Below are positions 8,801 to 11,278 of a DNA stretch of 38,070 bases, in pieces (the stretch's first letter is position 1; each line of letters starts with the position of its first letter). Source of the stretch: Methylococcales bacterium (lineage in GTDB: Bacteria; Pseudomonadota; Gammaproteobacteria; Methylococcales; Methylomonadaceae); the NCBI GenBank assembly GCA_026398935.1, contig JAPLRW010000291.1, forward strand, positions 1 through 38,070, read 5' to 3'. The position numbers and the translations under genes are program-made. The notes beneath the pieces were generated by a model. It saw only the letters and a program-made list of their open reading frames with translations. It was not told the origin of the DNA and searched no databases.

Positions 8801-9256
8801 TTAGTGGCGTCCCGTATGACCAAAGCCACCTTCACCGCGTACACTGGCATCAAACTCGGTGACCTGTTCAAAAGCAACTTGAATGATCGGTATAAAAACC
8901 ATTTGCGCAATGCGTTCGCCAATAGCAACGGTAAATGGCGTATTGCTTCTATTCCAGCAGGAAACAAATACTTGCCCTTGGTAATCGGCATCACACAGTC
9001 CCACTAAATTACCCAATACAATACCGTGTTTATGGCCTAATCCAGAGCGAGGTAACAGCAGCGCGGCAATAGCAGGATCGGCAATGTGTATCGCTAAGCC
9101 CGTTGGAATCAGTACGGATTCACCCGGATTTAATACCAGCGGCTCGTCTAAGCAGGCGCGCAAATCCATACCCGCAGAGCCGGGGGTAGCATAGTCCGGT
9201 AAAGGGATTTCGTTACCAAGGCGCGGATCTAAAATTTTAAGTTGTACGGTTTGCAT
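8801..9256 (-). CDS. dut: dUTP diphosphatase (dUTPase)
   Basis: This 151-aa enzyme hydrolyses dUTP to dUMP and pyrophosphate, keeping uracil out of DNA and feeding dTMP synthesis. The five trimeric dUTPase motifs are visible: [35 protein letters not shown] (with the catalytic-site Asp), GERIAQMVF, and the C-terminal arm [12 protein letters not shown], which closes over the substrate. Length is standard. The ATG is one base after the coaBC stop, so the genes are coupled, the common coaBC-dut order of gammaproteobacteria. Confidence 0.97.
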
Positions 9257-9257
9257 G

Positions 9258-10445
9258 CTATTCCTTATGAAATTGTGCTGCGATTAAGTGAATCAGTTGT
9301 TCTGCCAGTTGCGCTTTGTCCATCATCGCAATCGCGTGTTGGCCATTTTTCCAGAATACCTGTAAGGCATTTTGATCAGACTCAAAGCCGCCTTGCTCGC
9401 GGCCTACCCAGTTAGCGGCAATCATATTGACCCGTTTGCGCTGCAACTTATCTAACGCATGTTTTTCCAGATCATCCGTTTCAGCGGCAAAGCCGACACT
9501 GAACGGGGCGTTAGGCAGTGCTGCAACAGCAGCTAAAATATCCTGTGTTTTTAATAAAATCAGCGTAGTTTGCTCGGCTTGTTTTTTAATCTTACTCGGC
9601 TGTCCTTCTTGTGGGGTGTAATCGGCTACCGCTGCCGCCGCAATAAAAATATCACAGTGTTGCACTTGCTGCATAACCGTCGCATACATTTGTGCCGCGG
9701 TTTCGACGTTAAGTGTATGCGCCGCCGGGGGGGCAGTTAACGCCACTGGCCCGCTGACCAAAGTAACCTCTGCTCCCGCCGCCACAGCAGCAGCGGCCAA
9801 GGCATAGCCCATTTTTCCTGAGCTACGGTTAGTAATGTAGCGGACGGGATCAATTGCTTCTCGTGTGGGGCCTGCGGTAATGAGTATTTTTTTGCCGAGC
9901 AAAATGCGCGAACACGATTCGGACATAATCTGCTGACAAATGCTTGTCGGTTCAGACATACGCCCAAAGCCGATGTCGCCGCACGCTTGCTCACCACTCT
10001 CAGGGCCAATCAAGATGACGCCATGTTGCTGTAACCGCTTAAGGTTTTGTTGTGTTACCGGTTTATGCCACATGGCTTGATTCATTGCTGGGGCGACATA
10101 TACTGGACATTCTGCGACCAGATACAGTGTGCTGAGTAAATCATCCGCCAAACCATGACTCAGCTTCGCCAGCACATTCGCCGTAGCAGGCGCTATCAAC
10201 AACACATCCGCCCAGCGTGCCAACTCAATGTGTCCCATGGCATAATCTGCTTCCGGCGTTAATAAGTCAGTCTGCACCGGATAACCCGATAATGCTTGGA
10301 AGGTTAAGGGCGTCACAAACTGTAGCGCTGCTTGTGTCATCACTATCCGTACTTCGGCATTTTGTTTGACAAGTAGCCTCACCAGTTCGGCGCATTTATA
10401 CGCCGCAATGCCGCCGCTAATCGCTAAAAGAATTCGTTTTTTAAT
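9258..10445 (-). CDS. coaBC: Bifunctional phosphopantothenoylcysteine decarboxylase/synthetase, apparent ATT start
   Basis: CoaBC joins cysteine to 4'-phosphopantothenate (CoaB) and decarboxylates the product (CoaC), two steps of coenzyme A synthesis. The FMN-binding decarboxylase half has [11 protein letters not shown] (catalytic His, residue 72 with the long start), APAMNQAMW and [13 protein letters not shown]. The synthetase half has [24 protein letters not shown] and IKKQ. The first in-frame GTG (10382) would delete the conserved flavin-binding N terminus. Upstream the frame continues as [20 protein letters not shown], matching the family start, and the only well-placed initiation site is ATT at 10445-10443 with AAGGAG at 10457-10452, 6 nt away. 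There is no ATG, GTG or TTG between the in-frame stop (10472-10470) and 10382. With ATT the protein is 395 aa, a normal length. Confidence 0.93.
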
Positions 10446-10451
10446 CGTAGG

Positions 10452-10457
10452 CTCCTT
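10452..10457 (-). promoter_or_regulatory. Strong ribosome-binding site AAGGAG of coaBC
   Basis: AAGGAG on the minus strand lies 6 nt before the ATT at 10445. It is one of the best Shine-Dalgarno matches in the window, and it decides the start in favour of ATT over the internal GTG at 10382, which has no comparable site. Confidence 0.75.
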
Positions 10458-10558
10458 TTCGTTTACTAATCACTGTTTTACTGCCAGTATATCTAAAATC
10501 TGTCATTCATAAAGTCAAAAATGCAGCGTAAGGGATGCGTCTTACAGAAACGTTTAAT

Positions 10559-10580
10559 GGGTATTTAATCCTAAATACCC
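10559..10580. promoter_or_regulatory. Perfect hairpin in the radC leader
   Basis: GGGTATTTA (10559-10567) and TAAATACCC (10572-10580) form a perfect 9-bp stem with a 4-nt loop. It ends 14 bases before the GGAG of radC. There is no T tract on either strand, so a simple terminator is unlikely. It could be an operator or an mRNA element in the coaBC/radC divergent region. Confidence 0.45.
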
Positions 10581-10603
10581 CCGTTGAAAGGGATGGAGCT
10601 AAA

Positions 10604-11278
10604 ATGGGTATTAATGATTGGCCAGCTGATGAACGTCCACGGGAGAAATTATTACAAAGAGGGCCCGCCGCTTTAACCAACGCCGAACTTTTGGCGATTT
10701 TTTTACGCACAGGTACGCCCGGTAAATCAGCGGTTGATTTAGCGCGCGAACTATTAACCACCTTTGGCTCTTTACGCGCATTATTGAATGCGGATCGAGG
10801 TCGGTTTTGCCAAGGCTTAGGGCTGGGCGATGCTAAATACGCACAATTACAGGCGGTGCTGGAAATGGCGCGGCGGCATTTTGCCGAAATCCTGCAAAAA
10901 GGCGATGCTCTAACCAGCCCAGAAATAACCCGCGCATATTTGAGCGCACAATTGCGCGGCTATCACTTTGAAGTCTTTGCCTGTTTATTCTTGGATAATC
11001 AGCATCGGGTTATTCAATTAGAAGAACTGTTTCGCGGCACGATTGACAGCGCCAGCGTGTACCCGCGCGAAGTCATTAAACGCGCCTTACACCACAACGC
11101 GGCGGCAGTCATTTTTGCACACAATCATCCCTCTGGTATTAATGAACCCAGTCCGGCAGATCAACACATTACCGATAAATTAAAACAAGCCTTAGCATTA
11201 TTGGATATTCGCGTCTTGGATCATTTTATCGTAGGGGAGGGTGAGCCGTATTCTTTTGCAGAACATGGCTTGTTGTAA
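10604..11278 (+). CDS. radC: RadC family JAB/JAMM-domain protein
   Basis: With the start at ATG 10604 (GGAG at 10595-10598, 5 nt spacing) the protein is 224 aa, close to E. coli RadC. The upstream ATG at 10535 would add 23 residues that are not family-like and span a hairpin. The N-terminal helix-hairpin-helix part is [20 protein letters not shown]. The C-terminal JAMM metal site is HNHPSG with H173, H175 and D186 (EPSPAD). RadC was named for a supposed DNA-repair role that was later withdrawn in E. coli; the biochemical function is uncertain. The gene is divergent from coaBC, as in many gammaproteobacteria. Confidence 0.95.

Follow-up and report, generated by a model that had tools for sequence, protein, structure and literature searches.

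Probable AUU start codon of the coenzyme A synthesis gene coaBC in the methanotroph family Methylomonadaceae

The window (the whole stretch of DNA analysed, 38,070 nt) carries on its minus strand the gene coaBC (9258..10445), encoding the bifunctional phosphopantothenoylcysteine decarboxylase/phosphopantothenate-cysteine ligase. It is an essential gene of coenzyme A synthesis and belongs to core metabolism. Read from an ATT codon at 10443..10445, its product comprises 395 aa. Translated from five codons above the ATT, the frame matched the TIGR00521 (coaBC) profile at 479 bits (cut-off 219.7), with residues 7-393 covering profile positions 3-391 of 392. It also matched the Pfam Flavoprotein domain, starting at the first profile position, and the DFP domain. 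The TIGR00521 and Flavoprotein matches both begin upstream of the first in-frame canonical start, a GTG at 10380..10382 (minus strand), and their extents therefore place the start of the conserved protein upstream of this GTG, either on the ATT or immediately downstream of it, in agreement with the original prediction of a conserved N terminus in this position. coaBC was present in a single copy in the genome. Directly downstream lies dut (8801..9256, minus strand), which has an ATG start and was used as a control gene. The upstream neighbour radC (10535..11278, plus strand; taken from the open reading frame list and named from its own sequence) is divergent, and hence there is no same-strand upstream gene for translational coupling to coaBC.

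On the minus strand, the region ahead of the gene reads TGA(10472-10470) TTA GTA AAC GAA AAG GAG CCT ACG ATT(10445-10443), in which the in-frame TGA (10470..10472) forms the upper limit for any coaBC start. From the ATT onwards, the frame continues as ATT AAA AAA CGA ATT CTT TTA GCG ATT AGC GGC GGC ATT, and codons 4-15 encode residues that are near-invariant across relatives. The sequence confirmed the earlier claim that no ATG, GTG or TTG separates the in-frame stop from the flavin-binding N terminus; none occurs from the stop through codon +20. The Shine-Dalgarno sequence AAGGAG, read from the sequence at 10452..10457 (minus strand), precedes the ATT by 6 nt, so that the codon stands exactly where it had been described and where the N terminus of the protein family should begin.

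To place the ATT in a comparative context, coaBC sequences were gathered at the levels of genus, family and order and aligned in register on the xGGIxxYK motif, with codon 0 defined as the codon aligned with the window ATT at 10445-10443. The family set comprised 146 distinct coaBC starts from Methylomonadaceae, with 29 genera sampled; many of the loci carry the name of a member of this family (Methylobacter, Methylomonas, Methylovulum, Crenothrix and Methyloprofundus). Under a strict definition, requiring that no canonical start occurs from the stop to codon +2, 34 of the 146 sequences carried ATT (30) or ATC (4) at codon 0, which bears out the conservation in related genomes that the original prediction had proposed to check. 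Two more had the ATT one codon earlier (L024 and L201), and in 19 all canonical codons lay further than seven codons upstream. Under a wider definition that left codon 0 unconditioned, 55/146 sequences were devoid of canonical starts across codons -7 to +2; codon 0 was ATT or ATC in 53 of these and the ATT lay one codon earlier in the other 2. Genes with only AUU or AUC available were found in at least 13 of the 29 genera and included those of the isolates Methylobacter tundripaludum SV96 (L035), M. luteus (L060) and Methylomonas SURF-2 (L085, with ATC). The nearest relative, at 77 % identity, had the same ATT and no canonical start in 28 open upstream codons. In other members the in-frame stop lay very near codon 0, at codon -2 (L168, which reads TAG AAG ATT), -3 (L122) or -4 (L172, L185 and L199), leaving hardly any room for another start.

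The remaining family members displayed canonical alternatives close by, namely ATG at codon -2, TTG at +1, GTG at -4 and ATG at 0. The position of the coaBC start thus wanders within the family (L005, L007, L011, L014, L009, L202, L213 and others). ATG occupied codon 0 exactly in two species (L202 and L213), these being the only 2 such cases among 146. The TTG at -4 seen in 14 relatives overlaps the GG of the Shine-Dalgarno sequence, and a further GG or GAG upstream was present in only 1 of the 14; AUU may therefore be the start in those relatives too. A separate variation was noted at codon 9, before GGIAAYK, where serine (AGC/AGT) alternates with cysteine (TGC) in the flavin-binding loop across the family loci.

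Shine-Dalgarno spacing and protein conservation provided independent marks of the start. Among the 53 relatives with ATT or ATC at codon 0 and no usable canonical start, 85 % had G at position -10 and 75 % had G at position -9. Across all 55, GG occurred within -12 to -7 of codon 0 in 49, whilst GG or GAG within -20 to -13 occurred in 1. The motif in relatives was often just GG, unlike the AAGGAG of the window. Amino acid conservation began at codon 0: codons -9 to -1 each exceeded 2.5 bits of entropy, and from +1 the value was at most 1.25 bits. The third base of codon 0 was not better kept than that of nearby isoleucine codons (ATT in 48/53, compared with 46/53 at codon 12), and so provides no additional evidence that the start codon as such is under selection. 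Together, the position of the ATT, the Shine-Dalgarno spacing and the occurrence in two species of ATG at this very position support a coaBC start at ATT, as first proposed, and we consider it very probable from these comparisons that coaBC translation begins at an AUU codon positioned by its Shine-Dalgarno sequence.

Other explanations for the apparent start were weighed against the same data. Although the assembly is a 304-contig draft, a sequencing or assembly error at 10445-10443 has a negligible chance of being correct and is refuted for the family, as the identical ATT occurs in the nearest relative and many other genomes, isolates included. Translation from the GTG at 10382, the first canonical start and the one that an ORF finder gives, would yield 374 aa; it lies too far inside coaBC, because the conserved GGIAAYK flavin-binding segment would be lost with the rest of the near-invariant ILL(A/G)(V/I)SGGIAAYK, and both the Shine-Dalgarno sequence and the domain start sit at the ATT instead, making this start extremely improbable. 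It is also very unlikely that a leader peptide (GTG ATT AGT ... GAT TAA) ending on the ATT drives termination-reinitiation at the AUU. The TAA of this frame does overlap the coaBC ATT in the window, and a stop in the corresponding frame was found in 88 of 146 relatives; however, only 9 of those 88 had a canonical start in that frame within 30 nt, the stop is explained by the common coding sequence ATTAA(C/A/T), and in most relatives the apparent promoter leaves a short leader (see below). A small chance attaches to a different non-canonical codon just upstream, at -1 or -2, such as the ACG of the window or the ATT of relatives. ATT was also present at codon -2 in 14/53 and at -1 in 15/53 relatives, and some relatives had ATG at codon -2. 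Against this, codons -1 and -2 of the window are ACG and CCT, codon 0 agrees with the Shine-Dalgarno spacing and is where conservation sets in, and in L168 a stop occupies -2 and AAG occupies -1.

Screening of the leader itself gave few features. An Rfam scan of the coaBC start region returned no match, the leaders of the window and of three relatives, when folded, were not more stable than shuffled sequences, and a sigma-70 consensus scan of the window's coaBC leader found none. Most Methylomonadaceae loci (e.g. L035 and L060) displayed a conserved extended -10-like motif, TGnCATAAT, approximately 37 nt upstream of codon 0, which would make the coaBC leader only some 25 nt long. The window has TATACT further upstream in place of this motif.

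Genes of other lineages and other genes of the same loci served as controls. coaBC had a canonical start, mostly at codon -4, in each of the 15 sequences from sister families within the order and in each of the 23 outgroup sequences from other gammaproteobacteria. Within the same loci as coaBC, canonical starts were present in 75/75 dut and 17/17 argB sequences. For Shine-Dalgarno spacing, dut gave no useful comparison. radC apparently lacked canonical starts in 14 loci, which looks like a cut-off effect, as its conserved N terminus lies further in and most of these loci show an ATG just inside the aligned stretch. In a tree of 102 CoaBC proteins, the AUU-only sequences were scattered through the family and included the early-branching clade of the window (L001 and L002); this tree was built quickly and many of its forks have weak support, and it therefore gives no firm number of start-codon changes. 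The simplest reading is that AUU was ancestral in Methylomonadaceae and has repeatedly given way to canonical starts at a distance of one to four codons. On the evidence of these alignments, ATT is a family-wide trait that has repeatedly been swapped for canonical starts at neighbouring codons. As many relatives have moved to canonical starts, AUU is not indispensable in coaBC.

Two further genes of this genome were relevant to the use of such codons. infC (L233) has an ATC start, as do the other Methylococcales loci in which it could be read (L236-L262), and the last GG of its GGAGG lies at -10/-9 of the ATC, the same spacing as in the coaBC relatives. The N terminus of pcnB (ILNFFKK) falls on an ATT both in this genome (L234) and in relatives (L265-L281), and in L281 no canonical start occurs between the stop and the conserved region; pcnB thus apparently starts at ATT in this genome. 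With coaBC, infC (ATC) and pcnB (ATT), the organism seems to use AUU or AUC starts in three genes, of which coaBC is likely the third.

IF3 rejects any codon in the P site that is not AUG, GUG or UUG. infC encodes IF3 itself, and its AUU or AUC start gives an autoregulatory feedback loop. Applied to coaBC, this would mean that output is low and dependent on IF3, because IF3 rejects codons such as AUU. The first residue of an AUU-started CoaBC would still be formyl-methionine; the codon would hold CoaBC production at a low rate that follows the amount of IF3, as in infC. By this analogy the rate of production would be low and set by the strength of the Shine-Dalgarno sequence together with IF3, such that the coenzyme A pathway could be limited at the initiation of coaBC translation. 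Direct repression of coaBC by IF3 is, by analogy with infC, the most likely mechanism. Whether AUU has been retained in coaBC for the sake of IF3-dependent control is a proposition to which we give almost even chances. The original prediction had allowed both for regulation of coaBC in the manner of infC and for simple weak initiation, and both are consistent with the evidence.

It is a serious possibility, though one that we would place somewhat short of even, that the AUU start has no regulatory role: a weak start would then simply be tolerated, with drift maintaining it and the Shine-Dalgarno sequence or the promoter making up for its weakness. The frequent turnover within the family to ATG at -2, TTG at +1, GTG at -4 and ATG at 0 favours it, as does the behaviour of the third base of codon 0, which resembles that of any isoleucine codon, and the failure of our scans to reveal any Rfam element or conserved RNA structure at the coaBC start. 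Conversely, a change from ATT to ATG requires a single substitution, yet AUU/AUC-only coaBC persists across genera, and the rarity of ATG at codon 0 likewise argues against mere tolerance.

A weak start codon such as the AUU of coaBC has parallels in known systems. IF3 represses non-canonical starts in infC itself and, as shown experimentally, in Streptomyces sigR with GTC (PMC5472188). Conserved AUU and AUA starts reduce protein yield in Staphylococcus aureus (PMC13009471), and Escherichia coli pcnB expression is limited by its AUU start (Binns & Masters 2002, as cited in PMC13009471). infC resembles coaBC in having an AUU-type start after a Shine-Dalgarno sequence in the same genome, kept across genera, but encodes the factor that provides its feedback, whereas coaBC is only a putative target of IF3. 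E. coli pcnB, as described in that citation, is likewise a housekeeping gene with an AUU start, and its counterpart in the present genome also has ATT; it is however a different gene in a different pathway. Like coaBC, sigR has a non-canonical start kept across a taxon and missed by start prediction limited to ATG, GTG and TTG; it differs in its GTC codon, in encoding a stress sigma factor and in having been demonstrated experimentally, whilst coaBC is known from sequence comparison. The S. aureus genes ccpN (AUA) and cvfC1 (AUU) are also conserved weak starts that were found recently, ccpN acting in metabolic control, but they possess an extended Shine-Dalgarno sequence where the coaBC relatives often have a short one. 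The open-access literature searched yielded no account of coaBC starting at a non-canonical codon.

To our knowledge very few bacterial genes start at AUU, and coaBC would add a new pathway to those with AUU-type starts, as an essential gene of core metabolism in which the codon has been kept across a methanotroph family. Start prediction limited to ATG, GTG and TTG must misplace the coaBC start in these genomes. The gene also offers a natural comparative series, with AUU, AUC and AUG at one codon and starts shifted by one to four codons, that allows one to ask why bacteria retain inefficient starts. It is possible, although we hold this tentatively, that coaBC of Methylomonadaceae forms with infC and pcnB a small set of genes with AUU or AUC starts, and that translation initiation at its AUU couples coenzyme A synthesis to IF3. 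If this coupling is real, coenzyme A synthesis in these methanotrophs would follow the level and activity of IF3, and thereby ribosome supply and growth.
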